NCBI GenBank assembly: GCA_020723105.1
Contig: DYJL01000023.1
Location: forward strand, 1-48,728
Source: Nitrospira japonica
GTDB taxonomy: Bacteria; Nitrospirota; Thermodesulfovibrionia; UBA6902
DNA: 48,728 nucleotides
Direction: 5' to 3'
A program made the position numbers and the translations under genes. Each line of letters begins with the position of its first letter. Positions within the stretch are counted from its first letter, which is position 1. The notes under the pieces are model-generated. The model was not told where the DNA came from and did not search any database. It saw only the letters and a program-made list of their open reading frames with translations. Below are positions 27,833-48,728 of this stretch, piece after piece.

Positions 27833-27837
27833 ATAAA

Positions 27838-28282: not shown

Positions 28283-28307
28283 AAATTACTTAAGGAGGTG
28301 ATAAAAA

Positions 28308-29477: not shown

Positions 29478-29495
29478 TAAAGGAGGTAAGAAAAA

Positions 29496-30243: not shown

Positions 30244-30831
30244 ATGAGTAAAGAAAGAAAGTTAATAAACAGCGAAAATCTTACTGGAAATATAAGAAGG
30301 ATTTGGGGTGATGCTAAAGGAATTAGTGGAAATGCAAGTAAGATTATAGGAGATGTCACTAAGCTTTATGGTGATGTCTCTAATATTGAAGGATATGTTG
30401 GGAATATTTCTGGTGATGTTACTTATATTTCTAAATGTGTTTCTAAAATTAGAGGTAATGTCACTAATATTGAAGGAGATGTTTTTATTAACGGTAATGT
30501 CACTAATCTTTCTGGATATGTCGGGAATATTTATGGTGATGCCTTTAATATTTATGGTGATGCCTCTAATATTTCTGGTGATGTCTCTAATATTTCTGGT
30601 GATGTTACTAATATTGGAGGTAGAGTTACTGATATTACTGGTGATGTTTCTAAGATTTCTGGTGATGTTTCTAATATTAGAGGTGATGTTTCTTATATTG
30701 AAGGTAATGTTTCTAAGATTACTGGTGATATCTCTATTCTTAAAGGAAACGTTACTAATATTTCTGGTAATGACATCTCTGGATTTACATTTCTGAATTT
30801 AAAAAGAAATCTATTCTTTGAGGAAAATTAA
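30244..30831 (+). CDS. Heptad-repeat protein 8
   Basis: 195 aa. Head KLINSENLTGNIRRIWGDAK. One short unit, EGDVFINGNVT, has six residues between glycines instead of seven. The tail is ISGNDISGFTFLNLKRNLFF then EEN, a type shared only with the next gene. The intergenic spacer after it (AAGAAAAATTTTGTAACTGC) is repeated after that gene too. Confidence 0.78.
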   Translation: MSKERKLINSENLTGNIRRIWGDAKGISGNASKIIGDVTKLYGDVSNIEGYVGNISGDVTYISKCVSKIRGNVTNIEGDVFINGNVTNLSGYVGNIYGDAFNIYGDASNISGDVSNISGDVTNIGGRVTDITGDVSKISGDVSNIRGDVSYIEGNVSKITGDISILKGNVTNISGNDISGFTFLNLKRNLFFEEN

Positions 30832-30901
30832 GAAAAATTTTGTAACTGCTCAATCATCTATTAAAGAAGAAAGAATATAACAAAAAAAGGAGGTAAGAAA
30901 A

Positions 30902-31918: not shown

Positions 31919-31988
31919 GAAAAATTTTGTAACTGCTCAATCATTTATTAAAGAAGAAAGAATATAACAAAAGAAGGAGGTAAGAAAA

Positions 31989-33089: not shown

Positions 33090-33112
33090 CAAATAAAAAG
33101 GAGATAAGAAAA

Positions 33113-34228
33113 ATGAGTAAAGAAAGGAAGTTAATAAACAGCGAAAATCTTACTGAAGATATAACAAAGATTTGGGGGGACGCTAAAGGAATTAGAGGAA
33201 AGGCAAGTAACATTAGAGGTGATGTTACTAATATTTCTGGTAATATCTCCCTTCTTGAAGGGAATGTCACTGATATTTCTGGATATGTTAACAATATCTC
33301 TGGCAAGGTTACTAAGATTAAAGGTAATGTATCTCTTCTTAAAGGAAATGTTACTAATATTGAAGGAACTGTTACTTTTCTTGAAGGTAATATCATTGAA
33401 CTTTCTGGATATGTTGGGAATATTTATGGTAATGCCTCTAAGATTTCTGGGAATGCTTCTAATATTTTTGGTGATGTTACTAATATTATTGGTGATGTTA
33501 CTTCTCTTGAAGGTGATGTTACTTCTCTTGAAGGTGATGTTACTTCTCTTAAAGGGGATACTTCTAAACTTAAAGGTAATATTTCTAAGATTTCTGGTAA
33601 TGTTACTAAAATTTCTGGTAATGTTATTAATCTTAAAGGCGATGTTTCTAAGATTAAAGGGGATGTTGGGAATATCTTTGGTGATGTTACTTCTATTTTT
33701 GGTAAAGTTACCAATATTTCTGGTGATGTTACCAATATTTATGGTGATGTCTCTAAGATTTCTGGTGATGTTAGTAATATTGGAGGTAGAGTTACTGATA
33801 TTACTGGTGATGTTTCTAATATTTCTGGTAATGTTACTTTTGTTTCTGGTAATGTTTCTAATATTTTCGGTAATGTTTCTGAGATTTCTGGTGATGTTTC
33901 TGAAATTGAAGGGGATGTCTCTAATATTACGGGCAATGTTACTAAATTTTTAGGTGATGTCTCTCTTCTTAAAGGGAATGCCACGAATATTGAAGGATAT
34001 GTTGGCAGGATTAGAGGTGATATCTCCAACCTTAAAGGTAACGTTACTAAAATTGAAGGTGATGTTACCTTTCTTAAAGGGAATGTTTCTCTTCTTTCTG
34101 GATATGTTGGGAATATTCATGGGGATGCCTCTAATATTTATGGGGATGCTTCTAATATTGAAGGAGATGTCACTAATATTTCTGGCGATATTTCTAATCT
34201 TAAAGGTGATATCTCTAAAAAAGAATGA
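33113..34228 (+). CDS. Heptad-repeat protein 11
   Basis: 371 aa, site AAAAGGAGATAAG. Head KLINSENLTEDITKIWGDAK, with Glu replacing the head Gly. Opening heptads match protein 3 (VTNISGNISLLEGNVTDISG). Tail LKGDISKKE, the first of the SKKE-type ends seen through the middle of the array. The +1 frame near the end is open and runs into the next gene but lacks a ribosome site. Confidence 0.78.
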   Translation: MSKERKLINSENLTEDITKIWGDAKGIRGKASNIRGDVTNISGNISLLEGNVTDISGYVNNISGKVTKIKGNVSLLKGNVTNIEGTVTFLEGNIIELSGYVGNIYGNASKISGNASNIFGDVTNIIGDVTSLEGDVTSLEGDVTSLKGDTSKLKGNISKISGNVTKISGNVINLKGDVSKIKGDVGNIFGDVTSIFGKVTNISGDVTNIYGDVSKISGDVSNIGGRVTDITGDVSNISGNVTFVSGNVSNIFGNVSEISGDVSEIEGDVSNITGNVTKFLGDVSLLKGNATNIEGYVGRIRGDISNLKGNVTKIEGDVTFLKGNVSLLSGYVGNIHGDASNIYGDASNIEGDVTNISGDISNLKGDISKKE

Positions 34229-34280
34229 AAAAAAAGAAGTAAAAAGAAAAAATATAATAAATAAAAAGGAAATAAGAAAA

Positions 34281-35468
34281 ATGAGCGAAGAAAGAAAATC
34301 AGAATTAATGAATAATGAAAAGGAAGAAAGAGAATTAGAGTTACCAAGTCAAGAAAAAGAGTTAACAAATAGTGGAAATCTCACTGGAGATACAAGAAAA
34401 ATTTGGGGTAATGCTGAAGGAATTAGTGGAGATGCAAGTAACATTAAAGGGAATGTCTCTACTCTCTTTGGTGATGTTTCTAAGATTAAAGGTAATGTCT
34501 CTAAAATTTATGGTGATGTTACTAATATTATTGGTGATGTTTCTAATATTTATGGTGATGTTACTGATATTTATGGTGATGTCTCTAATTTTGAAGGTTA
34601 TACTCTTAATCTTAACTTATATAGAGGTAAAAAAATGAAGAGAAAAAGAAAGTTAATGAATAGCGAAAACCTCACTGGAAATATAACAAAGATTTGGGGT
34701 GATGCTAAAGGAATTAGAGGAAATGCAAGTAACATTAGAGGGAATGTTACTGATATTAAAGGTAATGTCTCCAATATTTCTGGTAATGTTACCAAGATTT
34801 TTGGATATGTCGAGAATATTACTGGTGATGTCAACAAGATTATTGGAGATGTTACTCTTCTTAAAGGTGATGTCTCTAATATTTCTGGTAATACTTCTGG
34901 TATTAAAGGTGATGTTTCTAATATTGAAGGATATGTCGGAAATATTTGTGGGGATGTTACTGATATTAAAGGTGATGTTAGTAATATCTATGGTGATGTT
35001 TTTAAGATTTCTGGGAATATTACTTATATTGAAGGTGATGTTACTTATATTAAAAATGATGTTACTAATATTTCTGGTGATGTTACTAATATTGAAGGAT
35101 ATATCTACGATATTTATGGTGATGTTACTAATATTAAAGGTGACATTACTTATATTAAAGGTAAAGTTACCAATATTAAAGGTGATGTCTCTAATATTTT
35201 TGGTGATGTTTCTAATATTTCTGGTGATGTTTCTTATATTTTGGGTGATGTTTCTAAGATTTCTGGTGATGTTTCTAAGATTGACGGATATGTTTTTGGT
35301 ATTTCTGGGAATGTTATTAATATTAGAGGAAATGTTACCAATCTTAGAGGGAATGTCTCTAATATCTCTGGGCTTGTTACTTATATTAAAGGTAATATTA
35401 CTAATATTAAAGGAGATATTTCTAAGATTAAAGGGAATATCTCTAAAGAAGAAGTGCAAAAAAAGTAA
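34281..35468 (+). CDS. Heptad-repeat protein 12, fusion with possible internal start
   Basis: 395 aa from ATG 34281. It has an extra charged N-terminus (ERKSELMNNEKEERELELPS) before the head KELTNSGNLTGDTRKIWGNA. After about 11 heptads, YTLNLNLYRGKKMKRKRKLM leads into a second full head (NSENLTGNITKIWGDAK). AGAGGTAAAAAAATG at 34623-34637 is a usable ribosome site and start in the same frame. Both a 395-aa and a 277-aa product are therefore possible. It ends GNISKEEVQKK. Confidence 0.75.
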   Translation: MSEERKSELMNNEKEERELELPSQEKELTNSGNLTGDTRKIWGNAEGISGDASNIKGNVSTLFGDVSKIKGNVSKIYGDVTNIIGDVSNIYGDVTDIYGDVSNFEGYTLNLNLYRGKKMKRKRKLMNSENLTGNITKIWGDAKGIRGNASNIRGNVTDIKGNVSNISGNVTKIFGYVENITGDVNKIIGDVTLLKGDVSNISGNTSGIKGDVSNIEGYVGNICGDVTDIKGDVSNIYGDVFKISGNITYIEGDVTYIKNDVTNISGDVTNIEGYIYDIYGDVTNIKGDITYIKGKVTNIKGDVSNIFGDVSNISGDVSYILGDVSKISGDVSKIDGYVFGISGNVINIRGNVTNLRGNVSNISGLVTYIKGNITNIKGDISKIKGNISKEEVQKK

Positions 35469-35528
35469 GGGGAAAAAGTTAATAAATAGTAGAGAAAAAA
35501 AGTCAACAAATAAAAAGGAGATAAAAAA

Positions 35529-35930
35529 ATGAATAGAAGAAGGGAGTTAATAAATAGTGGAAATCTTACTGGAGATATAACAAATATTTGGGGTAATGCT
35601 GAAGGAATTAATGGAAATGCAAGTAACATTAAAGGATATGTTACATATATTTCTGGTAATGTCTCTTCTATTTCTGGATATGTTGGAAGTATTACTGGTG
35701 ACGTTACTAAGATTAAAGGTGATGTTACTTATATTTCTGGGAATGTTTCTAAGATTGTAGGAGATGTCAGCAATATTTGTGGGGATGTTACTGATATTTC
35801 TGGTGATGTTTCTAAGATTGTAGGCAATGTCTCTAAAATTGAAGGAGATGTTACTAAAATTGAAGGAGATATCACTTTTCTTGAAAGTGATGTTACCAAT
35901 ATTAAAGGTGATATCTCTAAAAAAGAATGA
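35529..35930 (+). CDS. Heptad-repeat protein 13, short
   Basis: 133 aa, site AAAAGGAGATAAA. Head ELINSGNLTGDITNIWGNAE. Its whole body is nearly identical to part of the second half of protein 14 (SSISGYVGSITGDVTKIKGD, VSKIVGDVSNICGDVTD). Tail TNIKGDISKKE. One unit reads LESDVTN, with Ser replacing Gly. Either it is the source of that half of protein 14 or a copy of it. Confidence 0.78.
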   Translation: MNRRRELINSGNLTGDITNIWGNAEGINGNASNIKGYVTYISGNVSSISGYVGSITGDVTKIKGDVTYISGNVSKIVGDVSNICGDVTDISGDVSKIVGNVSKIEGDVTKIEGDITFLESDVTNIKGDISKKE

Positions 35931-35980
35931 AAAAAGAGAAATAAAAAGAAAAATTAACAAATAAAAAGGAGGTAAGAAAA

Positions 35981-37525
35981 ATGAGGAAAGAAAGGAAGCT
36001 AATAAATAGTGGAAATCTCACTGGAGATACAACAAGAATTTGGGGTGATGCTAAAGGAATTAGAGGAAATGCAAGTAAGATTAAAGGGAATGTTACTGAT
36101 ATTAAAGGTAATGTCTCCAATATTTCTGGTAATGTTACCAAGATTTTTGGATATGTCGAGAATATTACTGGTGATGTCAACAAGATTATTGGAGATGTTA
36201 CTCTTCTTAAAGGTGATGTCTCTAATATTTCTGGTAATACTTCTGGTATTAAAGGTGATGTTTCTAATATTGAAGGATATGTCGGAAATATTTGTGGGGA
36301 TGTTACTGATATTAAAGGTGATGTTAGTAATATCTATGGTGATGTTTTTAAGATTTCTGGGAATATTACTTATATTGAAGGTGATGTTACTTATATTAAA
36401 GGTGATGCTTCTAAGATTTCTGGTGATGTTTCTTATATTTCTGGTGATGTTACTAATCTTGAAGGATATATCTACGATATTTATGGTGATGTTACTAATA
36501 TTAAAGGTGATGTTACTTATATTTCTGGTGATGTTACTTATATTTCTGGTGATGTTACTGATATTTCTGGTGATGTTTCTAAGATTAGAGGTAATATAAG
36601 GAGTGAAGAAAGGAAATTAATAAATAAAGAGAATCTTATTGGAGATATAACAAATATTTGGGGTAATGCTGAAGGAATTAATGGAAATGCAAGTAACATT
36701 AAAGGATATGTTACATATATTTCTGGTAATGTCTCTTCTATTTCTGGATATGTTGGAAGTATTACTGGTGACGTTACTAAGATTAAAGGTGATGTTACTT
36801 ATATTTCTGGGAATGTTTCTAAGATTGTAGGAGATGTCAGCAATATTTGTGGGGATATTACTGATATTTCTGGTGATGTTTCTTATATTTCTGGGAGTGT
36901 TTCTAAGATTGTAGGAGATGTCAGCAATATTTGTGGGGATGTTACTGATATTTCTGGTGATGTTTCTAAGATTGTAGGCAATGTCTCTAAAATTGAAGGA
37001 GATGTTACTAAAATTGAAGGAGATATCACTTTTCTTGAAGGTGATGTTACTAATATTAAAGGTGATGTTACTAATATTAAAGGTGATGTTACTTGTCTTA
37101 AAGGTAATGTTTCTAAGATTTCTGGTGACGTTACTAATCTTGAAGGATGTATCTACAATATTTCTGGTGATGTTACTAATATTAAAGGTAACATTACTTA
37201 TATTAAAGGTAAAGTTATCAATATTAAAGGTGATGTTGCTTATATTTATGGTGATGTTACTAATATTTCTGGTGATATTTCTAAGATTTTGGGTGATGTT
37301 TCTAAGATTTCTGGTGATGTTTCTAAGATTGACGGATATGTCGGGAATATTCATGGTGATGTTACTGATATTAAAGGTAACATTACTTATATTAAAGGTA
37401 AAGTTACCAATATTAAAGGTGATGTTTCTAATATTTCTGGTGATGTTTCTAATATTTCTGGTGATGTTTCTAATATTTATGGTGATGTTACCTATCGTAA
37501 AGGTGATGTTACTAAAAAAGAATGA
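35981..37525 (+). CDS. Heptad-repeat protein 14, fusion with dead internal start
   Basis: 514 aa. First head KLINSGNLTGDTTRIWGDAK. At residue about 207, RGNIRSEERKLINKENLIGD begins a second head. The DNA there, AGAGGTAATATAAGGAGTGAA, is a former ribosome site with the ATG changed to AGG (36599), so separate initiation is lost. The first half is nearly identical to the second half of protein 12, and the second half to protein 13. Tail GDVTYRKGDVTKKE. Confidence 0.8.
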   Translation: MRKERKLINSGNLTGDTTRIWGDAKGIRGNASKIKGNVTDIKGNVSNISGNVTKIFGYVENITGDVNKIIGDVTLLKGDVSNISGNTSGIKGDVSNIEGYVGNICGDVTDIKGDVSNIYGDVFKISGNITYIEGDVTYIKGDASKISGDVSYISGDVTNLEGYIYDIYGDVTNIKGDVTYISGDVTYISGDVTDISGDVSKIRGNIRSEERKLINKENLIGDITNIWGNAEGINGNASNIKGYVTYISGNVSSISGYVGSITGDVTKIKGDVTYISGNVSKIVGDVSNICGDITDISGDVSYISGSVSKIVGDVSNICGDVTDISGDVSKIVGNVSKIEGDVTKIEGDITFLEGDVTNIKGDVTNIKGDVTCLKGNVSKISGDVTNLEGCIYNISGDVTNIKGNITYIKGKVINIKGDVAYIYGDVTNISGDISKILGDVSKISGDVSKIDGYVGNIHGDVTDIKGNITYIKGKVTNIKGDVSNISGDVSNISGDVSNIYGDVTYRKGDVTKKE

Positions 37526-37575
37526 AAAAAGAGAAGTAAAAAGAAAAATTAACAAATAAAAAGGAGGTAAGAAAA

Positions 37576-39234
37576 ATGAGGGAAGAAAGAGAGTTAATAA
37601 ATAGTGAAAATCTTTTTGGAGATACAAAACTGATTTGCGGTGATGCTAAAGGAATTAGAGGAAAGGCAAGTAACATTATAGGAGATGTCACTAATATTAA
37701 AGGGGATGTTACCAAGATTAAAGGTAATGTCTCTAATCTTGAAGGTGACGTTACTAATATTAAAGGATATGTCCACAATATTGCTGGGGATGTTTCTAAG
37801 ATTGAAGGTGATGTTACTTTTCTTGACGGACATGTTTTTGGTATTTCTGGTAAGATTACTAATATTAGAGGAAAGGTCACTAATATTAGAGGTGATGTTA
37901 CTAATATTTCTGGTGATGTCTCTTATATTTCTGGTAAGGTTACTAATATTTCTGGTAAGGTTACTAATATTTCTGGTGATGTCTCTAATATTTCTGGTGA
38001 TATTACCAAGATTTCTGGTTATGTTACTAATATTTCTGGTGACGTTTCTAAGATTTCTGGTGATGTTTCTAATATTGAAGGATATATTAGAAATATTTCT
38101 GGTGATGCTACTTATATTGAAGGTGATGTTACTAATATTAAAGGTAATGTTACTTATATCTCTGGTGACGTCTCTAATATTAGAGGGAATGTTACTGATA
38201 TTAAAGGTAATGTTTCCAAGATTTCTGGTAATGTTTCTAATATTTCTGGATTTGTCGAGAATATTACTGGTGATGTCAACAAGATTATTGGAGATGTTAC
38301 CCTTCTTAAAGGTAATGTTTCTCTTCTTTCTGGTAATGTTGGAAATATTAAAGGTGATGTTTCTAATATTAAAGGATATGTCGGAAATATTCATGGTGAT
38401 GTCACTGATATTAAAGGTGATGTCTCTAATATTTCTGGTGATGTTTTTAATATTTATGGTGATGTTACTAATATTAGAGGTGATGTTTCTAATATTTTGG
38501 ATGATGTTTCTAAGATTTCTGGTGATGTTACTAATATTGAAGGATATATCTACAATATTTATGGTGATGTTACTAATATTGAAGGTGACATTACTTATAT
38601 TAAAGGTAAAGTTACCAATATTAAAGGTAAAGTTACTAATATTTCTGGTGATGTTTCTAATATTTTAGGTGATGTTTCTTATATTTTGGGTGATGTTTCT
38701 AAGATTTCTGGTGATGTTTCTAAGATTGACGGATATGTTTTTGGTATTTCTGGGAATGTTATTAATATTAGAGGAAATGTTACCAATCTTAGAGGGAATG
38801 TCTCTAATATCTCTGGGCTTGTTACTTATATTAAAGGTAATATTACTTTTATCTCTGGGGATGTTACTAATATTAGAGGAAATGTTACTGAGATTAAAGG
38901 TAATGTTACTGATATTTCTGGTAATGTTACCAATATTTCTGGTGATGTCGAGAATATTATGGGCGATGTTACTGAGCTTTTAGGTGATGTCTCCCTTCTT
39001 AAAGGGAATATCACTGATATTGAAGGATATGTTGGCAATATTAAAGGTAATGTCTCTAATATTGAAGGTAATGTCTCTAATATTTCTGGTGATGTCTCTA
39101 ATATTTCTGGGGATGTCTCTAATATTTCTGGGGATGTTACTGAGATGAAAGGTGATGTTTCTAAACTTAAAGGTAATATTTCTAAAAAAAAGTTAAATTT
39201 TCCCAAGATTGAAGGAGATAATAAAAAAGAATAG
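37576..39234 (+). CDS. Heptad-repeat protein 15, longest single-head member
   Basis: 552 aa, one head (ELINSENLFGDTKLICGDAK, with Cys replacing Trp-adjacent Trp: the IWG is ICG here). More than 70 heptads with no phase break. A block, SKIDGYVFGISGNVINIRGN, is shared with protein 12. The tail is LKGNISKKKLNFPKIEGDNK then KE, shared with the next gene. Loss of the head Trp makes it the exception to the head consensus. Confidence 0.8.
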   Translation: MREERELINSENLFGDTKLICGDAKGIRGKASNIIGDVTNIKGDVTKIKGNVSNLEGDVTNIKGYVHNIAGDVSKIEGDVTFLDGHVFGISGKITNIRGKVTNIRGDVTNISGDVSYISGKVTNISGKVTNISGDVSNISGDITKISGYVTNISGDVSKISGDVSNIEGYIRNISGDATYIEGDVTNIKGNVTYISGDVSNIRGNVTDIKGNVSKISGNVSNISGFVENITGDVNKIIGDVTLLKGNVSLLSGNVGNIKGDVSNIKGYVGNIHGDVTDIKGDVSNISGDVFNIYGDVTNIRGDVSNILDDVSKISGDVTNIEGYIYNIYGDVTNIEGDITYIKGKVTNIKGKVTNISGDVSNILGDVSYILGDVSKISGDVSKIDGYVFGISGNVINIRGNVTNLRGNVSNISGLVTYIKGNITFISGDVTNIRGNVTEIKGNVTDISGNVTNISGDVENIMGDVTELLGDVSLLKGNITDIEGYVGNIKGNVSNIEGNVSNISGDVSNISGDVSNISGDVTEMKGDVSKLKGNISKKKLNFPKIEGDNKKE

Positions 39235-39282
39235 AGAAAGAAAGTTAATAAATTATAAGGAGGTTATAAGGAGGTGATAAAA

Positions 39283-40812
39283 ATGCATAAAAGGGAAAAA
39301 TTAATAAATGCCGAGAATCTTATTGGAGATACAAGAATGATTTGGGGGGATGCTAAAAGAATTAGCGGAAATGCAAATAAAATTGAAGGTAATGTTACTA
39401 ATATTTCTGGTGATGTTTCTAATATTGAAGGTGATGTTTCTTATATTTCGGGTAATGTTACTAATATTAAAGGGTATGTCTGGAATATTTTAGGTAATGT
39501 TACTGATATTGAAGGGGATGTTACTAAGATTGAAGGATATGTCGAAGATATTTTGGGTGATGTTACTAATATTACTGGGATTGTTACTCTTCTTGAAGGT
39601 GATGTCTCTAAAATTAAAGGTAAAATTACTAAGCTTTATGGTGATGTTACTAAGATTTCTGGTGATGTTTCTAAAATTACAGGTAAAGTTACTAATATTT
39701 CTGGTGATGTTACTAAAATTTATGGTAATGTTTCTAATATTTCTGGTGATGTTACTTATATTTCTGGTAATGTTACTTATATTTCTGGTGATGTTTCTAA
39801 AATCATAGGTAAAGTTACTTTTATTTCTGGTAATGTTTCTAATATTTCTGGTAATGTCACTGATATTGTAGGTGATGTCTCTAAGATTAAAGGTAAAATT
39901 TCTAAAGCTGATAATTTTATTTTCATTCATGGGGATGTTTCTAATATTTCTGGTGATGTTACTAATATTTATGGCAATGTTACTAATATTGAAGGTAATA
40001 TTACTTCTCTTTCTGGATATGTTACTAACCTTAAAGGCAATATTTCTAATATTGAAGGATCTATCAGATATCTTTCTGGTGATGTCTCTAATATTAAAGG
40101 TAATATCTCTTCTATTACTGGTGATGTTTCTAAAATTTCTGGTGATGTTACTGGTATTATAGGTGATGTTACTGGTATTATAGGTGATTTTACTAATATT
40201 AAAGGTAATGTTCTTGGTATTTCTGGTGATGTTACTAATATTTCTGGTGATGCTACTAATATTATAGGTAATGTTACTCTTCTTAAAGGTGATGTCTCTA
40301 AGATTTCTGGTAATGTTATTTATATTTCTGGTGATGTTTCTAAAATTACAGGTAAAATTACTAATCTTTATGGTGATGTTACTAATATTTCTGGTAATAT
40401 TACTAAAATTAGAGGTGATATTTCTAAGATTGAAGGATACGTCGGGAATATTTCTGGTTATATCAACAAAATTATTGGGAATGTTACTCTTCTTAAAGGT
40501 AATGTTACTAATATTTCTGGTGATGTCTCTAATATTTCTGGGAATGTTACTCTTCTTAAAGGTAATGTTTCTAATATTTCTGGTGATGTCTCTAATATTT
40601 CTGGGAATGTTACTCTTCTTAAAGGTAATGTTTCTAAGATTACTGGTAATGTTACTGATATTTATGGTGATGTTTCTTATATTTCTGGTAAAGTTACTAA
40701 TATTTCTGGGAATGTTTTTCTTCTTAGAGGTGATGTCTCTAAACTTAAAGGTAATATTTCTAAAAAAAAGTTAAATCTTCCCAAGATTGAAGGAGATAAT
40801 AAAAAAGAATAG
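39283..40812 (+). CDS. Heptad-repeat protein 16
   Basis: 509 aa from ATG 39283. The leader has two ribosome sites in tandem (AAGGAGGTTATAAGGAGGTG). An in-frame GTG inside the second site is not a likely start. Head KLINAENLIGDTRMIWGDAK. One interruption, KISKADNFIFIHGDVS, breaks the period. Near the end a 21-residue (three heptads) unit, NVTLLKGNVSNISGDVSNIS, is repeated three times. Tail LKGNISKKKLNLPKIEGDNK then KE. Confidence 0.8.
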   Translation: MHKREKLINAENLIGDTRMIWGDAKRISGNANKIEGNVTNISGDVSNIEGDVSYISGNVTNIKGYVWNILGNVTDIEGDVTKIEGYVEDILGDVTNITGIVTLLEGDVSKIKGKITKLYGDVTKISGDVSKITGKVTNISGDVTKIYGNVSNISGDVTYISGNVTYISGDVSKIIGKVTFISGNVSNISGNVTDIVGDVSKIKGKISKADNFIFIHGDVSNISGDVTNIYGNVTNIEGNITSLSGYVTNLKGNISNIEGSIRYLSGDVSNIKGNISSITGDVSKISGDVTGIIGDVTGIIGDFTNIKGNVLGISGDVTNISGDATNIIGNVTLLKGDVSKISGNVIYISGDVSKITGKITNLYGDVTNISGNITKIRGDISKIEGYVGNISGYINKIIGNVTLLKGNVTNISGDVSNISGNVTLLKGNVSNISGDVSNISGNVTLLKGNVSKITGNVTDIYGDVSYISGKVTNISGNVFLLRGDVSKLKGNISKKKLNLPKIEGDNKKE

Positions 40813-40860
40813 AGAAAGAAAGTTAATAAATTATAAGGAGGTTATAAGGAGGTGATAAAA

Positions 40861-41451
40861 ATGCATAAAAGGAAAAAATTAATAAATGCCGAGAATCTTA
40901 TTGGAGATACAACAGAGATTTGGGGGGATGCTAAAGAAATTAGAGGAGATGCAAGTAACATTAGAGGGAATGTCTCTTATATTAGAGGAAATGTTTCTAA
41001 TATTGAAGGTGATGTTACTGATATTAAAGGTGATGTTACTTATCTTAAAGGTAATGTTACTAAGATTTCTGGTGACGTTACTAATATTGAAGGATATATC
41101 TACAAGATTTATGGTGATGTTACTAAGATTTCTGGTGACGTTACTAATCTTGAAGGATATATCTACGATATTTATGGTGATGTTACTAATATTAAAGGTG
41201 ATGTTACTTATATTTCTGGTGATGTTACTTATATTTCTGGTGATGTTACTGATATTTCTGGTGATGTTACTGATATTTCTGGTGATGTTACTAAGATTTC
41301 TGGATATGTTGGGAATATTCATGGGGATGCTTCTAATATTAAGGGTGATGCTTCTAAGATTACTGGTGATGTTTCCAATATTTCTGGGAATGTTACTCTT
41401 CTTAAAGATGATGTCTCTAAACTTAAAGGTAATATTTCTAAAAAAAGTTAA
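40861..41451 (+). CDS. Heptad-repeat protein 17
   Basis: 196 aa from ATG 40861, with the same doubled ribosome site and nearly the same spacer as the preceding gene. Head KLINAENLIGDTTEIWGDAK. The body has several consecutive identical SGDVTYI or SGDVTDI units. The tail is cut short at LKGNISKKS by a shift of one A in the poly-A run that elsewhere gives SKKKLN. It is the last gene of the main array. Confidence 0.78.
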   Translation: MHKRKKLINAENLIGDTTEIWGDAKEIRGDASNIRGNVSYIRGNVSNIEGDVTDIKGDVTYLKGNVTKISGDVTNIEGYIYKIYGDVTKISGDVTNLEGYIYDIYGDVTNIKGDVTYISGDVTYISGDVTDISGDVTDISGDVTKISGYVGNIHGDASNIKGDASKITGDVSNISGNVTLLKDDVSKLKGNISKKS

Positions 41452-41590
41452 ATCTTCTTAAAATAAGAAGGTAATAAAATAGTTGAAAAAATAGAAACTG
41501 GGAGGGGAAAAATAGAAACTGGGAGGGGATTGGGAGGGGAAAAAATAGAAACTGGGAGGGGAAAAAATAAATTAAAAAAGGTGATAAAAA
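41452..41590 (+). repeat. G-rich tandem repeats with quadruplex motif
   Basis: GGGAGGGG occurs four times (41500, 41521, 41532, 41554), mostly within a TAGAAACTGGGAGGGGAAAA unit. GGGAGGGGATTGGGAGGGG at 41521-41539 fits a G-quadruplex on the coding strand. It separates the main array from the independently promoted last member. Confidence 0.6.
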
Positions 41591-41728
41591 ATGATTAATA
41601 AATATCAAAAATGGATATTTAAAAAATATTTATTCTCAGAAAAAATAGATATTTTTATTGAGAAAATAATAAAAAGAATAATAATAATAATATTATTAAT
41701 TATTATTCTATATTGGATAACAAAATAA
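41591..41728 (+). CDS. 45-aa membrane peptide
   Basis: Reads MINKYQKWIFKKYLFSEKID and then a hydrophobic run, IIIIILLIIILYWITK. AAAAGGTGATAAAAA precedes the ATG. Basic amphipathic start and single C-terminal membrane helix. Like the peptide at 24834 it may be a membrane-active or anchor peptide. Moderate confidence because of its length and Ile/AT bias. Confidence 0.5.
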   Translation: MINKYQKWIFKKYLFSEKIDIFIEKIIKRIIIIILLIIILYWITK

Positions 41729-41740
41729 TTTAAAAAATAC

Positions 41741-41769
41741 TTGACAAATGTTATAATATATGTTATAAT
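41741..41769 (+). promoter_or_regulatory. Promoter for the last repeat gene and rusA-like gene
   Basis: TTGACA (41741-41746), 17-base spacer, TATAAT (41764-41769). The start should be near 41776. The spacer also contains a second TATAAT-like hexamer. The core is nearly identical to the promoter at 43609. Confidence 0.8.
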
Positions 41770-41812
41770 ATGTAAGAGTAATAGATAACGAAAATATTAA
41801 AAGGAGATAAAA

Positions 41813-42514
41813 ATGACAAAAAAATTAATAAATAATGAAAATCTTACTGGAAATACAAACAAAATCTGGGGTGATGCAAAAAAAATCACGGGAGATACAA
41901 GTAAAATCAAAGGTGATGTTAGTAATATTGAAGGTGATGTTAGTAAGATTAGTGGTAATGTTAGTAATATTAAAGGTAATGTTAGTAAAATTGAAGGTAG
42001 TGTTAGCAGAATCGAAGGTAATGTTAGTAATATTGAAGGTGATGTTAGTAAGATTAAAGGTGATGTTAGTAAAATTGAAGGTGATATTAGTAATATTGAA
42101 GGTGATGTTAGTAATATTGAAGGTAATGTTAATAAAATTAAAGGTAATGTTAGTAATATCGAAGGTAATGTTAATAAAATTAAAGGTGATGTTAGTAAAT
42201 TTATGGGTGATGTTAGTAATATTAAAGGTGATGTTAGTAAAATTGAAGGTGATATTAGTAATATTGAAGGTGATGTTAGTAATATTGAAGGTAATGTTAG
42301 CAAGATTGAAGGTGATGTTACTAATATTAAAGGTAATGTTAGTAATATTGAAGGTGATGTTACTAATATTAAAGGTGATGTTAGTAATATTGAAGGTGAT
42401 GTTACTAATATTAAAGGTGATGTTAGTAAGATTAAAGGTGATGTTAGTAAATTTAAAGGTAATATTAGCAAATTTAAAAATAGAGGGGAAAAGAAAAATG
42501 GAATTCATAATTAA
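41813..42514 (+). CDS. Heptad-repeat protein 18, separately promoted
   Basis: 233 aa, site AAAAGGAGATAAAA. Head KLINNENLTGNTNKIWGDAK. The most uniform member: nearly every unit is GDVSNIE, GNVSNIK or GDVSKIE. It uses AGT for Ser almost throughout, whereas most of the array uses TCT and ACT. The tail is ISKFKNRGEKKNGIHN and overlaps the start of the RusA-like gene by 17 nt, so the two are translationally coupled. Confidence 0.82.
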   Translation: MTKKLINNENLTGNTNKIWGDAKKITGDTSKIKGDVSNIEGDVSKISGNVSNIKGNVSKIEGSVSRIEGNVSNIEGDVSKIKGDVSKIEGDISNIEGDVSNIEGNVNKIKGNVSNIEGNVNKIKGDVSKFMGDVSNIKGDVSKIEGDISNIEGDVSNIEGNVSKIEGDVTNIKGNVSNIEGDVTNIKGDVSNIEGDVTNIKGDVSKIKGDVSKFKGNISKFKNRGEKKNGIHN

Positions 42515-42863
42515 TATTGAAGGAATGAGTCAAGTAAGAATGACTCAAAGAAACAAATATATAAATGAAAAAGCTCAACAATATCTTGCATGGAAAAAAG
42601 AAGTTGGTTGGATATTAAAACAACAATTTAAAGGAAAATCTCCTTTTATTGGTTCTTTAGAAATATCTGGTAAATTTTATCTTTCACTTAGTCGATATAA
42701 TAGATGCGATTTATCAAATTTAATTAAAGCAATAGAAGATGCAGGACAAGGTATCTTATATCGTAATGATAAACAAATTAAAAAATATAATAGTTGGCAA
42801 ATGATACCTGTTAGGGAAGCAGAAACAAAAAAAATTATATTTGAAGTTAATGCATTAATATAA
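42498..42863 (+). CDS. RusA-like Holliday junction endonuclease
   Basis: 121 aa from ATG 42498, with GAGGGGAAAAG upstream; the normal size for RusA. The signature region RYNRCDLSNLIKAIEDAGQG followed by ILYRNDKQIKKYNSWQM matches the RusA pattern R..D.DNL.K...D.L.G....DD.Q. The acidic residues Asp (CDLSN), Asp (IEDAG) and Asp (RNDKQ) are in the expected places. It would resolve branched replication or recombination intermediates before packaging. Confidence 0.82.
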   Translation: MEFIINIEGMSQVRMTQRNKYINEKAQQYLAWKKEVGWILKQQFKGKSPFIGSLEISGKFYLSLSRYNRCDLSNLIKAIEDAGQGILYRNDKQIKKYNSWQMIPVREAETKKIIFEVNALI

Positions 42864-42890
42864 TATTTTATTTCCAAAAATATTATATTT
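42861..42890 (+). terminator. Weak hairpin after the RusA-like gene
   Basis: TAATATTTT and AAAATATTA pair around a seven-base loop, followed by TATTTCTATT. The stem is wholly A-T and the T-run is broken, so termination is doubtful. Confidence 0.3.
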
Positions 42891-42946
42891 CTATTATAAA
42901 TAATATTATTTATTTATATATATATATTAGTAGTAGTAATAGTACC

Positions 42947-43547
42947 TGTGGATAACTTGAAGATAATTTTATAGAGGCTGATTCTGTCTATTTAAAAAAG
43001 GATTTTTGTCCTGTGGATAACCTGTGGATATCTTGTGGATATCTTGTGGATAACCTGTGGATAACTTTTTAAATATAAGTTATCCACAGGTTATCCACAG
43101 GTTATCCACAGGGTTATCCACAGGGTTATCCACAGGGTTGTAAAAAAAATTTTGACAAAATAACGGAAAAATCATAAATGCTTCTATTTATTGATATTAA
43201 GAAGAGAAAAAATCAATTCTGTTAACTGTAAATGATCTGTGGATAACTTTATAAAGGCAGATTTTATCTACCTCAAGAAGAGATTTTTATCTTATAAATA
43301 ATTTTGTAAAAATTTTTAAAAATTTATATTTTATAGATAACCTGTGGATAACTTTATAAATATCCCTGTGGATAACCTGTGGATAACTCTATAGAGGTAG
43401 ATTCTATCTACTTGTAGAAGGTCTATTCCCTGTGGATAACCTGTGGATAACTCTATAGAGGTAGATTCTACCTATTTGTAGAAGGTCTATTCCCTGTGGA
43501 TAACCTGTGGATAACTCTATAGAGGTAGATTCTACCTATTTGTAGAT
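42947..43547. promoter_or_regulatory. Origin-like region: 19 DnaA boxes
   Basis: TTATCCACA or its complement occurs 17 times, and ATATCCACA twice (43023, 43034). Boxes start at 42947, 43012, 43023, 43034, 43045, 43056 (TGTGGATA orientation), 43080, 43091, 43102, 43114, 43126 (opposite orientation), 43238, 43343, 43367, 43378, 43431, 43442, 43495 and 43506. Six then five boxes face each other around 43065-43080. AT-rich stretches at 43140-43200 and 43300-43335 could unwind. Most boxes are 11-12 bases apart, about one helical turn, which suits a continuous DnaA filament. Confidence 0.85.
43364..43547 (+). repeat. Three 64-bp iterons
   Basis: Copies start at 43364, 43428 and 43492. Each has two head-to-tail DnaA boxes (CCTGTGGATAAC twice), then TCTATAGAGGTAGATTCTA and a CTATTTGTAG segment. 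The GTAGATTCTAC core is an inverted repeat and could bind a second protein. A looser relative lies at 42945-42990 and 43236-43275. The third copy runs into the promoter at 43609. Confidence 0.8.
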
Positions 43548-43608
43548 AATTTTATATTTTTTAATATTAATTATTTTAAAAATAAATAAAAAAAAGTAAA
43601 AAAAACAC

Positions 43609-43637
43609 TTGACAAATATTATAATATATGTTATAAT
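43609..43637 (+). promoter_or_regulatory. Promoter of the small XRE-type regulator
   Basis: TTGACA (43609-43614), 17-base spacer, TATAAT (43632-43637). It lies 23 bases before the ATG at 43660, giving a very short leader. It directly abuts the iterons, so DnaA or another iteron-binding protein could influence it. Confidence 0.8.
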
Positions 43638-43659
43638 ATATATGTAAGGAAAAAGAAAA

Positions 43660-43863
43660 ATGAAAACTGAAAAACAACAAGCTATATCTGATATTTGTAA
43701 ATATAAAAAAATCCATAAATTATCTACTGAAGCATTAGCTTTAAAATTAAATATTAACTATACAACACTTTATCGAATAATTAGAGGAAAAACAAAATAT
43801 CCACATGATACTACTTGTGAAAAAATAAAGGAATTTATAAAAGAAGAAAATAAAAAAGCATAA
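43660..43863 (+). CDS. Cro/XRE-type helix-turn-helix regulator
   Basis: 67 aa with AAGGAAAAAG upstream. ISDICKYKKIHKLSTEALAL and KLNINYTTLYRIIRGKTKYP form a helix-turn-helix of the Cro/CI type (LSTEALALKLNINYTTLYRI being the turn and recognition helix). It has no further domain. It sits just downstream of the origin region and is followed by a structured-RNA candidate. It may regulate the divergent arms or the origin. Confidence 0.75.
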   Translation: MKTEKQQAISDICKYKKIHKLSTEALALKLNINYTTLYRIIRGKTKYPHDTTCEKIKEFIKEENKKA

Positions 43864-43878
43864 ATAAATAATAAATAA

Positions 43879-43988
43879 ACTTCCCGCCTGTCATATCAAA
43901 TATTTCCTCTCGGGTGAGTTTAGAAATATCACTCATCTTCTCCAAAGATGATCCTGGACGTATCACTCACTTCAAGCAGGCGGGAAGT
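43879..43988 (+). ncRNA. Structured RNA element or regulatory leader
   Basis: A closing stem of 12 perfect pairs (ACTTCCCGCCTG at 43879, CAGGCGGGAAGT at 43977) encloses 86 bases. Inside: ATATTTC (43900) with GAAATAT (43923), and TCATCTT (43933) with AAGATGA (43945) around a five-base loop. GTGAGT (43914), in the first loop, can pair with ACTCAC (43965), giving a pseudoknot. GC content is well above the surroundings and no reading frame explains it. It lies in the leader of the excisionase-like gene. No T-run follows the stem, so it is not a simple terminator. Confidence 0.6.
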
Positions 43989-44014
43989 AATTATTATTAA
44001 TGAGGTATGAAAAT

Positions 44015-44236
44015 ATGAAAGATATAAAAAATCAATCTTTATTAACAGTTCAAGAAGTCGCGGAGATATTGCGATTAAGTAATAGTACAATTTATCGTAT
44101 GATTCGCGAAGGAAATCTTGTTGCTGTAAAATTAGGTGAAAAAAAAGGAGCTACTATTAGAATTACACAAAAGGCTATTGCTCACTTAATAAAAGAAAGA
44201 GGAAGAAAAAATGAAGAATCAATCATGGATAATTGA
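44015..44236 (+). CDS. Excisionase-family helix-turn-helix protein
   Basis: 73 aa from ATG 44015, which has TGAGGTATG upstream; ATG 44000 is less likely. SLLTVQEVAEILRLSNSTIY and RMIREGNLVAVKLGEKKGAT are the classic HTH_17/excisionase pattern: a recognition helix followed by a wing containing K-x-G. No integrase is seen, so a role in site-specific excision is unsupported. A replication-initiation or regulatory role next to the iterons is more likely. Confidence 0.8.
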   Translation: MKDIKNQSLLTVQEVAEILRLSNSTIYRMIREGNLVAVKLGEKKGATIRITQKAIAHLIKERGRKNEESIMDN

Positions 44237-44333
44237 AAGATTTAGATATCTTGATGAACAAGAACAAGACGATTTTCTTACATGGGTAAATAACATAGAA
44301 AAAGATTTTGAAGATTTTGAAGATTATCTTTAA
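44211..44333 (+). CDS. Small acidic protein
   Basis: 40 aa; ATG lies inside the preceding gene, which has GGAAGAAAAA just before it, so the genes overlap by 26 nt. Reads MKNQSWIIERFRYLDEQEQD then DFLTWVNNIEKDFEDFEDYL. Strongly acidic (many Asp and Glu). Function unknown; such small acidic early proteins often inhibit DNA-binding targets, but there is no motif. Confidence 0.5.
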   Translation: MKNQSWIIERFRYLDEQEQDDFLTWVNNIEKDFEDFEDYL

Positions 44334-44385
44334 ATAAAAAATATAAAGAAGAATATTAAATAATCAAAGGAGGTTGTAAAAAAAG

Positions 44386-45435
44386 ATGTCTACTCAACAT
44401 AATAAAACAATAGTAGAAGAAAAAAAAGAAAAAGATATTATAGGATTACAAACTCTTTCTATAGAAGAAGTAGTTGCACAAATAAACTTGATTCACAATG
44501 TAATGAAAACTATAATGAAAAAAGATGAACATTATGGAATAATTCCAAATACTAAAAAACCAACATTATATAAACCTGGAGCTGAAAAAATATGTCTTAC
44601 CTTTCGCCTTGCTCCTGATTATGAAATCATTAGAGAAATTCGAGAAGAAGATTTTATATCTTATATTGTGAAATGTTCTTTAACACATATTATTTCAAAA
44701 CAAATCATAGCTTGTGGTATTGGAGCTTGTAATAGTAAAGAGAATAAATATAATTTTCGTTATATTCAGGAAGAAGGAATTTCTACTGGAAAAGTAGTTC
44801 CAAAAGAATATTGGGAAATAAGAAAAGATAATCCAATAAAAGCACAAGAATTATTAGGAGGAGCTGGATTTCAAGCGAAAAAGGGAGAAAATGGAATTTG
44901 GCAAATTTATACAAAAGGAAAATTCGAAAAAGAAATAAATAAAAATCCCTGGGAATTAGATAATACTATTATAAAAATGGCTTGCAAAAGAGCATTAATT
45001 GCCGCAACTTTAAATGCTACCGCAACAAGTGATATTTTTACTCAAGATATAGAGGATTTCTCTGAAGAATTTTTTCAACAACCATCTCAACAATTATTTC
45101 AACAACCATCTCAACAACCATCTCAACAATTATTTCAACAACCATCTCAACAACCATCTCAATCTCAACAAAATTTACAAAGAATTAAAGATATAATTAT
45201 CAATTTGAATAAAAATGATAAAAATAATGAAATCGCTGAATTTGCAAAACGATATTTAAAATATGTTTATAATTGTAATACATTAGAAGAGTTATTAAAA
45301 AATCCAAGTTATTTAGATGATTGCTGGAATATGTGGAAGACATATCAAGATCTATATGATGAAAAATCGATAACAATAGATGAGATAAAAAATGATTTTA
45401 GAAAATTTTTCCAAGAAAAGAATAATAATCAATAA
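44386..45435 (+). CDS. Conserved phage protein, possible DNA-annealing/recombination protein
   Basis: 349 aa, site AAAGGAGGTTG. It has phrases found in a widespread phage family: DEHYGIIPNTKKPTLYKPGA followed by EKICLTFRL, VKCSLTHI, GIGACNSKENKYNFRY, and NPWELDNTIIKMACKRALIA then ATLNATATSDIFTQDIED. The family is, to my knowledge, usually of unassigned or suggested single-strand annealing function. Residues about 230-262 are a Gln-rich low-complexity tract (PSQQLFQQ repeated). The last 80 residues form a separate helical domain (IKDIIINLNKNDKNNEIAEF). It sits in the early arm with a RusA-like resolvase, which fits recombination. Confidence 0.7.
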   Translation: MSTQHNKTIVEEKKEKDIIGLQTLSIEEVVAQINLIHNVMKTIMKKDEHYGIIPNTKKPTLYKPGAEKICLTFRLAPDYEIIREIREEDFISYIVKCSLTHIISKQIIACGIGACNSKENKYNFRYIQEEGISTGKVVPKEYWEIRKDNPIKAQELLGGAGFQAKKGENGIWQIYTKGKFEKEINKNPWELDNTIIKMACKRALIAATLNATATSDIFTQDIEDFSEEFFQQPSQQLFQQPSQQPSQQLFQQPSQQPSQSQQNLQRIKDIIINLNKNDKNNEIAEFAKRYLKYVYNCNTLEELLKNPSYLDDCWNMWKTYQDLYDEKSITIDEIKNDFRKFFQEKNNNQ

Positions 45436-45481
45436 GATAAAAAATAAATTTTAAATAAAAAAGGAAAGGAGATGAAAAATA

Positions 45482-45619
45482 ATGACAGAAATGATTGGAA
45501 TAGAAGAAGACGAATTAAAAAAAATAATAAAGAGATTAGAAGATTTATATGATTTATTAAGAAATGTAATAGACTCACTTAATAATAATACAATATTGAT
45601 AGATAATTTTAAAAGATAA
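45482..45619 (+). CDS. Small acidic helical protein, paralogue of the 28133 gene
   Basis: 45 aa, site AAAGGAGATGAAAA. MTEMIGIEEDELKKIIKRLE then DLYDLLRNVI ... ILIDNFKR. Matches the peptide at 28133 in order and in its end, including the downstream TAAAAATTACTTAA. It is the last gene of the plus arm. Unknown function. Confidence 0.62.
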   Translation: MTEMIGIEEDELKKIIKRLEDLYDLLRNVIDSLNNNTILIDNFKR

Positions 45620-45650
45620 AAATTACTTAAAGAATTACATTTTTTATTTT

Positions 45651-46061
45651 TTATTTGGATTTTAAATCTGATTTAGAAGGAGGTAATGAAGTAAGAATAG
45701 GAGAAGATAAAACAGAAAGTAAATCTTTTTCTTTTAATTCTTTAGCCCTTTGTTGTTTAATCCAATTAGCAAAGTTTTTAATAAAAAAGAAATGAAATTT
45801 TTTAGGATATAATTCTTTCTTAAACCAACGATACCATGTACGATAATTAATATGACTGAATTCTTCAAGAGAAGTATACCATTGTTTTTTTATATATTGA
45901 GTTTTTACTTTTTTATCTCTTTTCTCTCTTTTATCTCTTGACTTTATACATTGAGAAACTTTAGCATTATACTCTATAGTTTTCTTCTTAAAGTATAAAA
46001 TAATAACACGAATATCTTGATAAATATCATCATATTCAGAATTTGTTATTTTATATTGCAT
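45651..46061 (-). CDS. Basic hypothetical protein, last gene of the late arm
   Basis: 136 aa, very Lys/Arg-rich in the middle (SRDKREKRDKKVKTQYIKKQ). A helix-turn-helix-like phrase, TSLEEFSHINYRTWYRWFKK, lies about residues 63-82. The C-terminus is Ser/Pro/Lys. It lies 34 nt downstream of the 1298-aa gene and faces the plus arm. It may be a DNA-binding regulator or a virion DNA-associated protein. No family recognised. Confidence 0.65.
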   Translation of the reverse strand: MQYKITNSEYDDIYQDIRVIILYFKKKTIEYNAKVSQCIKSRDKREKRDKKVKTQYIKKQWYTSLEEFSHINYRTWYRWFKKELYPKKFHFFFIKNFANWIKQQRAKELKEKDLLSVLSSPILTSLPPSKSDLKSK

Positions 46062-46095
46062 TTTAATTTATAATATCCATCCTTTTTAACTTTTA

Positions 46096-48728
46096 TTAAA
46101 AAATTTTTTTATCTTTTGATTTCTTGGATTGTTGTTTATAGATTTCACTTAATTTCATTGGCGTAAAACCAAATCCAAGAAGAAGAGCTTCATGGAAAGT
46201 TTGAGGTTTATAAATTACTTTAACTGTTTTTCCTCTGCCTTGTTTTACTCCTTGAATAGCTTTAGCAGTTCCTTTAACAACATATTGAATTCCTGCTAAT
46301 GGAAGATTACCAATAATTCCTGGAATACCATATTTATTCCAATCTCTTTCTCCCCGTTCAATTTCTTGATGAATAATTTGAAGGGAAGTAGTTATATCCC
46401 CAATATTTGCAAGACCTTTACTATAGAATGGCACTAAGAATTGTGGAGCAATATCTAAAGCTCCAAGAAATCCACCTAACATAAATTTTTCTTGTAAAGT
46501 TAAATTTAATGGATTTTTATTAATCAGCCCTTGTTTCTCTAATAAACTTCTCCCAAAAGGAAAATTACTAAATCCTAATCCTAATAACCAAAGCATAGAT
46601 ATTTGTAATTTTACACCTACTTCTGCTCGAACAAATTCATTAATAAAATGAAGAGGCCATCGTAAAAAAATAGCACCATATTTTCTTATCCATCCAGCTT
46701 CAGGAGACTGAAGAGCAATTAAGAAATTCGCTTGTTTATAAAAAGGTTTCCCAACACCTAATAGAAAATCTGTTGCTACTATTTCAGCTTCATTACCTAT
46801 TAATCCTTTATCACGAGCTAATTTTAAACCTAATTCATATGTTTTTCGAGAGCTATAAGATTCTGATAAGCGAGATAATATCTCTAACTTGGCTAAATTA
46901 CTTTTTTCTAATACTTCTTCTACATACATTGAAGTAAATAAACCTTCTTTTTCTGCCTTTTTAATTAAAGCAATATATTCTTTATTTAAAGGCATATCAA
47001 ATTTAAGGGGATTCTTTAATTTAAAAGTATTTATTCTTACTCTTGCCCAAAAAGGTTCTAATAAATTTTGAAGTATAAAAGTAGGTTTATTTGCTAATGT
47101 CATAAAATAAGTATAAGTTTTTAATCCATCTAATATACCTAATCCTCTAATCGGTGTTGATAAATTATCTAAATATTGTAAAGCAACATTTTTTCGAAAT
47201 GAATCTGTTATTGTTTTTTCAGCTGTTTTTTTCAATTCCTTCATATTTAATCGAAATTCTCGTTGAATAGCACTATTTGCAGAATCTATTCCAGCTTCTA
47301 CTATAGCATTCCAATTAGTTAAAAAGCCTGGGAAATCGTGGCGATGAATAAAATGTTTCATCAATCCAGACATTGAACGATAACTATTAAGTAATCTTAT
47401 TGCTTCTTCACTACCTAAAGAAATTCCTCTTGAAGTTAAATACCATTCCATATCAACCATAGTTCCAAAAGGTGGGAAATATAGCATTTGTTCCTGATGT
47501 GGTTTTATACTAATTCTAATATTAGGCATCGTTCTTTTCATTAACTTTTCAAGTGTCTCTGCATAAGTTTTATTTGGGACTCGGGCAGAATATATTTTTT
47601 CTTCTCCTCCACTTATTAATGGTTTAAAAACCTCTACCCAAAAATTTCCTTTTAAACGATTATGAAACATATAATTTTCATAAGGTAATATTTCATTTAT
47701 TATTCGTTGAGTTTCTTGTCCTAATTCACCTGTTATGGGATCTTGTATCCAGTTTTTAACTGCTGTTTCAAAATTTATCTCGGTAACAGTTTTTTCTCGA
47801 TAATGTCCAGTTTTTTTATCAAGCCATCTTAATAAAACTTTTTCGGAGGTTTCTGAAATTTCATAGATTTTAATTTTTTTCATTTTCATTAAATTTAAAA
47901 GTTGAATATCTGTTAAGCTTTCTTGTTTTATTATTCCTTCTTTAGTTTCATATTTAACTACTTGAATAAAGCCTTCTGATCGAGCAGTTACACCAAGTCG
48001 AGAACGTAAAATTTCCCGAATTAAAGCATCCTTAACAAATTTATAAATATAATAATAGCTAATATATGCTTCTTTATCTTTTTCTGTTAATCTTCCCTCT
48101 TTAACAGCAGTATTTATTATTTGAAAAATATCAAAATTAGGATTTTTTTCTGCTTCACAAACTATTCTGGCTAATTTTCTTGGATTATCAATTTGTTTTG
48201 CTCTGCTTTCTAATATTTTAATATCACGTTCTTGTCGTAATAATTTTCTAACTAATTGATTAATTGTACTTACAATTGGTTGACTATCTTTATATTGTCT
48301 TAAATAAGTATGAACTATTTCAAGATTATGTATCCCTCGTTTAAGTTGTCTTATTCCTTCTCTAATAGTTCCAACTAACTTTTGTAGAGGAGATAAAATA
48401 TCATCAAGATCTTCAGGGGTTATTTCAATACCTTTATCTTTATTTACTCCATAACTTTCTGATATTTTAGGATTTTTTTCTTTTATTCCTTTAGCTAAAT
48501 CATCCATTGATTTTACTGGCTTTTTCTCTCCCTCTATTACTTTCTCCCCTACTTTAACTGGCTTTTCCTCTACCTCTATTACTTTCTTCCCTACTTTAAC
48601 TGGCTTTTTCTCTACCTCTATTACTTTCTCTCCTACTTTAACTGGCTTTTTCTCTCCCTCTATTACTTTCTCCCCTACTTTAACTGGCTTTTTCTCTCCC
48701 TCTATTACTTTCTCCCCTACTTTAACTG
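46096..48728 (-). CDS. Giant ejection-type virion protein, C-terminal part
   Basis: Continues from base 1 (see 1-1292); the frame is kept if 48701-48728 duplicates 1-28. Residues about 496-1298 start at MDDLAKG, an internal Met at 48507 following the repeat linker. The chain is largely helical. It includes FIHRHDFPGFLTNWNAIVEA, TLANKPTFILQNLLEPFWAR, EAGWIRKYGAIFLRWPLHFI and a hydrophobic segment, ISMLWLLGLGFSNFP. These phrases resemble the large polyvalent-type or internal virion proteins of phages. The repeats at 48508-48700 link the halves. No lysozyme or protease motif is evident. Confidence 0.8.
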   Translation of the reverse strand, partial: VKVGEKVIEGEKKPVKVGEKVIEGEKKPVKVGEKVIEVEKKPVKVGKKVIEVEEKPVKVGEKVIEGEKKPVKSMDDLAKGIKEKNPKISESYGVNKDKGIEITPEDLDDILSPLQKLVGTIREGIRQLKRGIHNLEIVHTYLRQYKDSQPIVSTINQLVRKLLRQERDIKILESRAKQIDNPRKLARIVCEAEKNPNFDIFQIINTAVKEGRLTEKDKEAYISYYYIYKFVKDALIREILRSRLGVTARSEGFIQVVKYETKEGIIKQESLTDIQLLNLMKMKKIKIYEISETSEKVLLRWLDKKTGHYREKTVTEINFETAVKNWIQDPITGELGQETQRIINEILPYENYMFHNRLKGNFWVEVFKPLISGGEEKIYSARVPNKTYAETLEKLMKRTMPNIRISIKPHQEQMLYFPPFGTMVDMEWYLTSRGISLGSEEAIRLLNSYRSMSGLMKHFIHRHDFPGFLTNWNAIVEAGIDSANSAIQREFRLNMKELKKTAEKTITDSFRKNVALQYLDNLSTPIRGLGILDGLKTYTYFMTLANKPTFILQNLLEPFWARVRINTFKLKNPLKFDMPLNKEYIALIKKAEKEGLFTSMYVEEVLEKSNLAKLEILSRLSESYSSRKTYELGLKLARDKGLIGNEAEIVATDFLLGVGKPFYKQANFLIALQSPEAGWIRKYGAIFLRWPLHFINEFVRAEVGVKLQISMLWLLGLGFSNFPFGRSLLEKQGLINKNPLNLTLQEKFMLGGFLGALDIAPQFLVPFYSKGLANIGDITTSLQIIHQEIERGERDWNKYGIPGIIGNLPLAGIQYVVKGTAKAIQGVKQGRGKTVKVIYKPQTFHEALLLGFGFTPMKLSEIYKQQSKKSKDKKIF
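48508..48728 (-). repeat. 42-bp in-frame tandem repeat, right part
   Basis: About five copies of the same 14-residue unit as at 1-417, with minor changes (EVEKKP, EVEEKP). Bases 48701-48728 equal bases 1-28, the overlap used to close the circle. Confidence 0.9.

Follow-up and report, generated by a model that had tools for sequence, protein, structure and literature searches.

The phage genome and the genes beside the array

The window, meaning the whole stretch of DNA that was analysed, is an entire contig (C56) of 48,728 bp with 28% GC, from an assembly of 3.13 Mb in 94 contigs. The first-pass annotation had taken it for a phage genome, and this is borne out by genes for a terminase, a portal, an SU10-like capsid and adaptor, and an endolysin. 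The portal is of the P22/SU10-like kind and an internal virion protein gene is present as well, as befits a tailed phage. The contig ends share 28 bases inside a 42-bp tandem repeat (VKVGEKVIEGEKKP), and once this overlap is collapsed, one unbroken frame of 1,298 codons spans the ends (46096-48728 plus 1-1292, minus strand). Because of the end overlap and the unbroken frame, the contig is read as circular, and it is probably a closed circle of about 48.7 kb. A search of the assembly for a second copy of 40000-48728 gave no long match outside the contig. About 19 kb (23527-42514; 40% of the phage) is occupied by paralogous genes of 7-residue repeats such as GDVSNISGDVT; many of these genes start KLINAENLIGDT-x-x-IWGDAK, and in several the antisense strand is an open frame too. 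Amid the structural and lysis genes lies a class 3 lipase gene (6687-7529; Lipase_3, 2.4e-30).

The features between 42498 and 45435 are the following:

42498-42863, plus strand: RusA-like Holliday junction resolvase gene (phrog_140, 1.2e-15; Pfam RusA, 2.8e-10)
42864-42926, no strand: AT-rich stretch (95% AT), candidate DNA unwinding element by its AT content and its place beyond the trios
42928-42942, plus strand: five DnaA-trios, TAGTAGTAGTAATAG, reading from the box 3'-GAT-AAT-GAT-GAT-GAT-5' (consensus from PMC8287927)
42943-42946, no strand: 4-bp spacer TACC from trios to box (published average, 4 bp)
42943-43554, plus strand: five copies of a 64-bp unit, starting at 42943, 43223, 43363, 43427 and 43491
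42947-42966, minus strand: box pair at 11-bp pitch, a perfect box (42947-42955) and a weak box TTATCTTCA (42958-42966)
42970, 43250, 43390, 43454 and 43518, plus strand: 21-bp motif TATAGAGGYAGATTCTATCTA, one per 64-bp unit (motif search)
43012-43064, minus strand: five boxes at 11-bp pitch, three perfect and two ATATCCACA
43080-43134, plus strand: five perfect boxes at 11-12-bp pitch, inverted relative to the block at 43012-43064
43238-43514, minus strand: eight further perfect boxes, at 43238, 43343 and in the pairs 43367/43378, 43431/43442 and 43495/43506
43541-43640, no strand: second AT-rich stretch (92% AT) on the right flank, with no trios on that side
43609-43637, plus strand: consensus sigma-70 promoter TTGACA-17-TATAAT for the rightward genes (12/12 matches)
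43660-43863, plus strand: gene of a 67-aa Cro-like HTH protein (HTH_3, 5e-4, under the curated cut-off)
44000-44236, plus strand: gene of a 78-aa excisionase-type (HTH_17) DNA-binding protein (HTH_17, 3.2e-14; TIGR01764)
44386-45435, plus strand: gene of a 349-aa phrog_10048 protein (phrog_10048, 1.6e-49)

The recognised DNA-metabolism genes of the phage are those of RusA and the phrog_10048 protein. In three annotated phages, homologues of the phrog_10048 protein directly precede an exonuclease or endonuclease gene, which in two of them is followed by an SSB gene, and from this gene neighbourhood alone the protein is probably a recombination protein and not an initiator. Profile comparison of the phrog_10048 family with the Mgm101-like protein of the relative described below gave no support, and single-sequence structure predictions were poor (pLDDT 39.5 for the 349-aa protein and 51 for a 136-aa protein). 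The family scans (Pfam, PHROGs and NCBIfam) covered the sizeable non-repeat proteins of the window, and small ORFs and the 19 kb of repeat genes in part; no gene for an initiator, helicase loader, helicase or polymerase was recognised among the sizeable non-repeat proteins. Several of the window's proteins are without any family match and, given this together with the partial scan of repeat genes and small ORFs, it is possible that an initiator escapes recognition.

The DnaA-box array and its left edge

Seventeen perfect DnaA boxes (TTATCCACA) and two boxes of the form ATATCCACA lie within 42947-43514, and a scan of the whole window found no perfect box elsewhere in the contig. Dinucleotide shuffles of the window hold 0.67 perfect boxes on average (maximum 3), with at most one in any 600 bp. 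The initial count of 19 boxes, 17 of them perfect, is thus upheld, and so are the 11-12-bp spacing and the inverted clusters that went with it: both are found in the five reverse boxes of 43012-43064 and the five forward boxes of 43080-43134. The folding energy of this inverted 5+5 block as a single strand is -53.6 kcal/mol (z = -14.5). The remaining 3.09 Mb of the assembly, some of whose contigs read as masked, contain 31 perfect boxes and no perfect box pair at 11-bp pitch.

The same account had listed three 64-bp iterons; the repeat is real, while its copies number five, two of them diverged. The 21-bp motif TATAGAGGYAGATTCTATCTA has exactly five matches in the window at up to three mismatches (0.02 expected), all inside the 64-bp units, and may be a binding site for another protein. 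The weak box at 42958-42966 sits 4 bp before this motif, just as normal boxes do in the other units, and this register suggests a second box of the first unit that has decayed.

As published, the basal unwinding system (BUS) joins a DnaA-box through a short spacer to three or more trios with the consensus 3'-GAT-5'; the spacer is a GC-rich region of about 4 bp, or 10-13 bp when counted from the better of two paired boxes (PMC8287927, PMC6669920). In the window, a trio run that was absent from the first-pass annotation adjoins the outermost box of the array. The order away from this box is a perfect box, 4 bp, GAT-AAT-GAT-GAT-GAT and AT-rich DNA, on the strand and side that the BUS requires. 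The distance of 4 bp falls within the 16 bp allowed between box and trios, and the minimum of three trios on the correct strand and side is exceeded by two (four GAT and one AAT). The stretch 42864-42926 is among the top 0.3% of 60-bp windows by AT content and borders the trios on the side away from the box, which is where the BUS model places opening. The (TAR)x5 run at 42928-42942 is unique in the window, both strands having been searched; 5000 shuffles of the flank yielded such a run as near the box once, and 200 shuffles of the window never reproduced the arrangement. Furthermore, a looser BUS pattern found no match elsewhere in the 3.13-Mb assembly. Judged by these sequence features, the left edge of the array is a complete BUS of the bacterial chromosome-origin kind.

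The element is like the incC-type BUS of B. subtilis (PMC6669920, PMC8287927) in its box pair, 4-bp spacer and correct-strand 3'-GAT-5' trios, in the AT-rich DNA past the trios and in the further boxes at a distance. It is unlike a chromosomal BUS in being carried by a phage, at a GC-skew maximum and with no dnaA or dnaN near; moreover, the proximal box of its pair is the stronger one, and it comes with 17 perfect boxes, inverted blocks and the extra 21-bp iteron-like motif.

A bidirectional origin is expected at the cumulative GC-skew minimum. The array lies near the maximum, and this is the main point counted against its reading as an origin. The skew in this phage tracks gene orientation. 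As an origin test, GC skew was discarded: 12 other phages show no consistent flip at their BUS sites, and the window is opposite to expectation. At the skew minimum of the window there is a 1.5-kb AT-rich divergent intergenic region (21800-23300) with repeated AAGATAAGAAAAGATAAG-like tracts; it contains no perfect DnaA box and is an alternative origin candidate.

Relatives, host and similar elements in other phages

The nearest relative found is IMG/VR 3300032112_000026 (G001; 50.4 kb), which is circularly permuted and collinear with the window phage over most structural genes, the two being 57% identical in terminase, 54% in portal and 50% in capsid. This relative has one perfect box in total and no box cluster. 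It employs the lambda/SPP1-type module of initiator and helicase loader (PMC5499656), encoding a replisome organiser (phrog_9327, phrog_13246, phrog_270) and a DnaC-like helicase loader (phrog_50, 1e-48), whereas neither gene was recognised among the scanned proteins of the window phage. An Mgm101/Rad52-like protein and a Holliday-junction resolvase are also encoded by G001. Between the two collinear relatives, an initiator/loader cassette has apparently been exchanged for a DnaA origin.

The setting of the array is not that of an oriC, which would be chromosomal and usually near dnaA; the contig is a phage, and dnaA is on another contig of the assembly. By its DnaA, which is 94% identical to that of a groundwater MAG, the assembly into which the contig is binned is itself a MAG of the Thermodesulfovibrionia (Nitrospirota). 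The host of the phage is uncertain, because the GC content of the phage (28%) differs from that of the sampled contigs of this assembly (mostly 37-49%) and no box cluster lies at the dnaA of the assembly. Beside dnaA in this lineage, neither box clusters nor trios were found, save that one distant locus, labelled deltaproteobacterial, has a trio-like run. No terminase relative was found in GTDB contigs, and the terminase matches in the phylum of the MAG are just ~24-32% identical.

Triple box arrays are common in phages (at least 120 contigs in a scan). Trios as a general trait of such arrays were considered and rejected: among 120 sequences, comprising 119 other phage arrays with enough flank and the window, a run of at least four CTA/TTA triplets on the expected side occurs in the window only, and four other arrays carry a run of three. 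That most phage box arrays lack trios is counted against the DnaA-origin reading.

A box with four trios is present in 37 IMG/VR contigs versus 8 with the box reversed as a control (p = 1.5e-5), or, after sequence grouping, in 27 groups of correct orientation versus 5 reversed. All eight reversed-box controls have a single perfect box and lie inside ORFs of at least 80 codons, whereas contigs of correct orientation have at least two perfect boxes in 28 of 37 cases and, by the same ORF test, are intergenic in 22 of 37. The distances from box to trios in these contigs are concentrated at 4 and at 12-13 bp. In one group of eight (L165 and others), more boxes follow the trios, and the element there could have another role. 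Since 10 of the 20 BUS contigs examined match one terminase model, many of them are tailed phages. DnaB helicase was detected in 1 of 20 BUS contigs versus 8 of 20 array-only contigs (Fisher p = 0.02), the two sets being of similar total length (498 kb and 563 kb, respectively) and the contigs incomplete, which makes these counts indicative. The DnaC-like loader model is rare in both sets alike and does not discriminate between them.

Arrays and BUS-like stretches were also encountered in other settings. The T7-like phages P483 and phiEap-1 have TTATCCACAGG-type arrays near their genome ends and encode their own replication proteins (L131 and L132), and intergenic box arrays occur in small single-stranded DNA phages (Microviridae), as in bajarodmic virus 309 (L133). 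A gokushovirus (KT264804.1, 3706-3746) gave a 43-base match to the box-plus-trio query, and small Buchnera plasmids (NZ_CP135041.1, 173-231; NZ_CP135044.1, 1233-1283) are similar to the BUS stretch of the window phage.

A probable host-DnaA-driven origin and its alternatives

In the usual description, a phage origin is served by initiators that the phage itself encodes, or DnaA has a helper role. That phage replicons can contain DnaA boxes is already known from P1 in its plasmid replicon (PMC4980987), and in lambda DnaA acts as a helper (PMC5499656). In a literature search at the level of titles and abstracts, with subscription journals mostly outside it, no description of DnaA-trios in a phage was found, and the match that joins DnaA-trio with phage genomes concerns, at that level, a Kocuria chromosome; an earlier description of a phage BUS in other literature is possible.

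The anatomy of the array, its rarity, the lack of any recognised initiator, loader, helicase or polymerase in the scanned proteins and the contrast with G001 are observed. The array is best read as a tailed-phage replication origin of the chromosome type that depends on host DnaA, a reading to which we assign a probability of about 0.72, and this putative origin would stand in place of the initiator/loader module. The first-pass annotation had left a choice between a DnaA-dependent phage origin and a datA-like titration decoy. The former is well supported at the sequence level by the complete BUS, by the absence of a recognised initiator or loader and by the G001 contrast; the latter is needless for the anatomy and does not predict oriented trios. 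The 21-bp motif counts against the DnaA-origin reading, as it suggests a second binding protein.

Because of these motifs, a plasmid-type iteron origin is the main rival, though an unlikely one. Here, a phage protein (for example, the HTH_17 protein) would bind the five 21-bp motifs and initiate, with DnaA as a helper (compare P1, RK2 and pSC101). The five copies are regularly spaced and region-specific, small HTH genes lie directly downstream of the array, and boxes, iterons and an AT-rich element together make up the plasmid pattern (PMC4980987); P1 and other iteron plasmids likewise have box arrays, repeats for a possible second protein and an AT-rich element, and the P1 replicon is also phage-borne. 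Nevertheless, no Rep-like protein was found by Pfam, PHROGs or NCBIfam, and the sole Rep-sized protein beside the array (349 aa) occurs in a recombination context in other phages. The window phage further departs from iteron plasmids in its trio run and its many more boxes, and a helper role for DnaA needs neither a full BUS nor a far bigger box array.

An array that is not an origin and soaks up host DnaA, thereby blocking host initiation, appears improbable. The datA locus of E. coli is, like the array, a DnaA-box cluster; the window phage differs by its trios, its adjacent AT-rich element and its phage genome. The 17 perfect boxes exceed half of the 31 in the rest of the assembly, and trio-less box arrays are common in other phages, both as a titration role would have it. 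However, oriented trios, correct spacing and an AT-rich element serve no such role, the phage has no other recognised replication start, and G001, with its own initiator and loader, is without the array. A regulatory or structural element (a DnaA-controlled early promoter, a cruciform or a packaging signal) is more improbable still, for although a consensus promoter adjoins the array, the inverted clusters fold strongly and comparable arrays occur close to the genome ends of T7-like phages, 17 boxes or trios would be superfluous for a promoter and the hairpin is a consequence of one sequence repeated inverted.

For the preferred host-DnaA-driven origin, we infer DnaA binding, unwinding, origin use and the later steps from the sequence. 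Host DnaA would load onto the array of strong boxes, and an ATP-DnaA filament would extend from the box pair at 42947-42966 onto the plus-strand trios at 42928-42942. This filament would open the AT-rich stretch 42864-42926, where the host helicase and replisome would be loaded for theta replication; subsequent rounds and the formation of concatemers could pass to RusA and the phrog_10048 protein. By raising the local DnaA concentration, the large additional array would probably let the phage origin compete with that of the host, and the 21-bp motif may give a small HTH protein of the phage control over the origin. With 17 strong boxes per genome copy, some titration of host DnaA is possible as a side effect, and would be an expected by-product of the many perfect boxes and not their function.

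The broader proposal is a class of tailed phages that have abandoned their own initiator and loader, carry a bacterial BUS, start replication purely by host DnaA and outcompete the host origin by massed perfect boxes; we consider the odds on it to be even. If true, some phages start replication with the cell-cycle initiator of their host, and their replication would be tied to the level and nucleotide state of DnaA. For studies of origin opening, such phages would also offer short natural variants that differ in trio number, array size and the spacing between box and trios. The apparent swap of cassette and origin between the two collinear phages opens the idea to direct testing.
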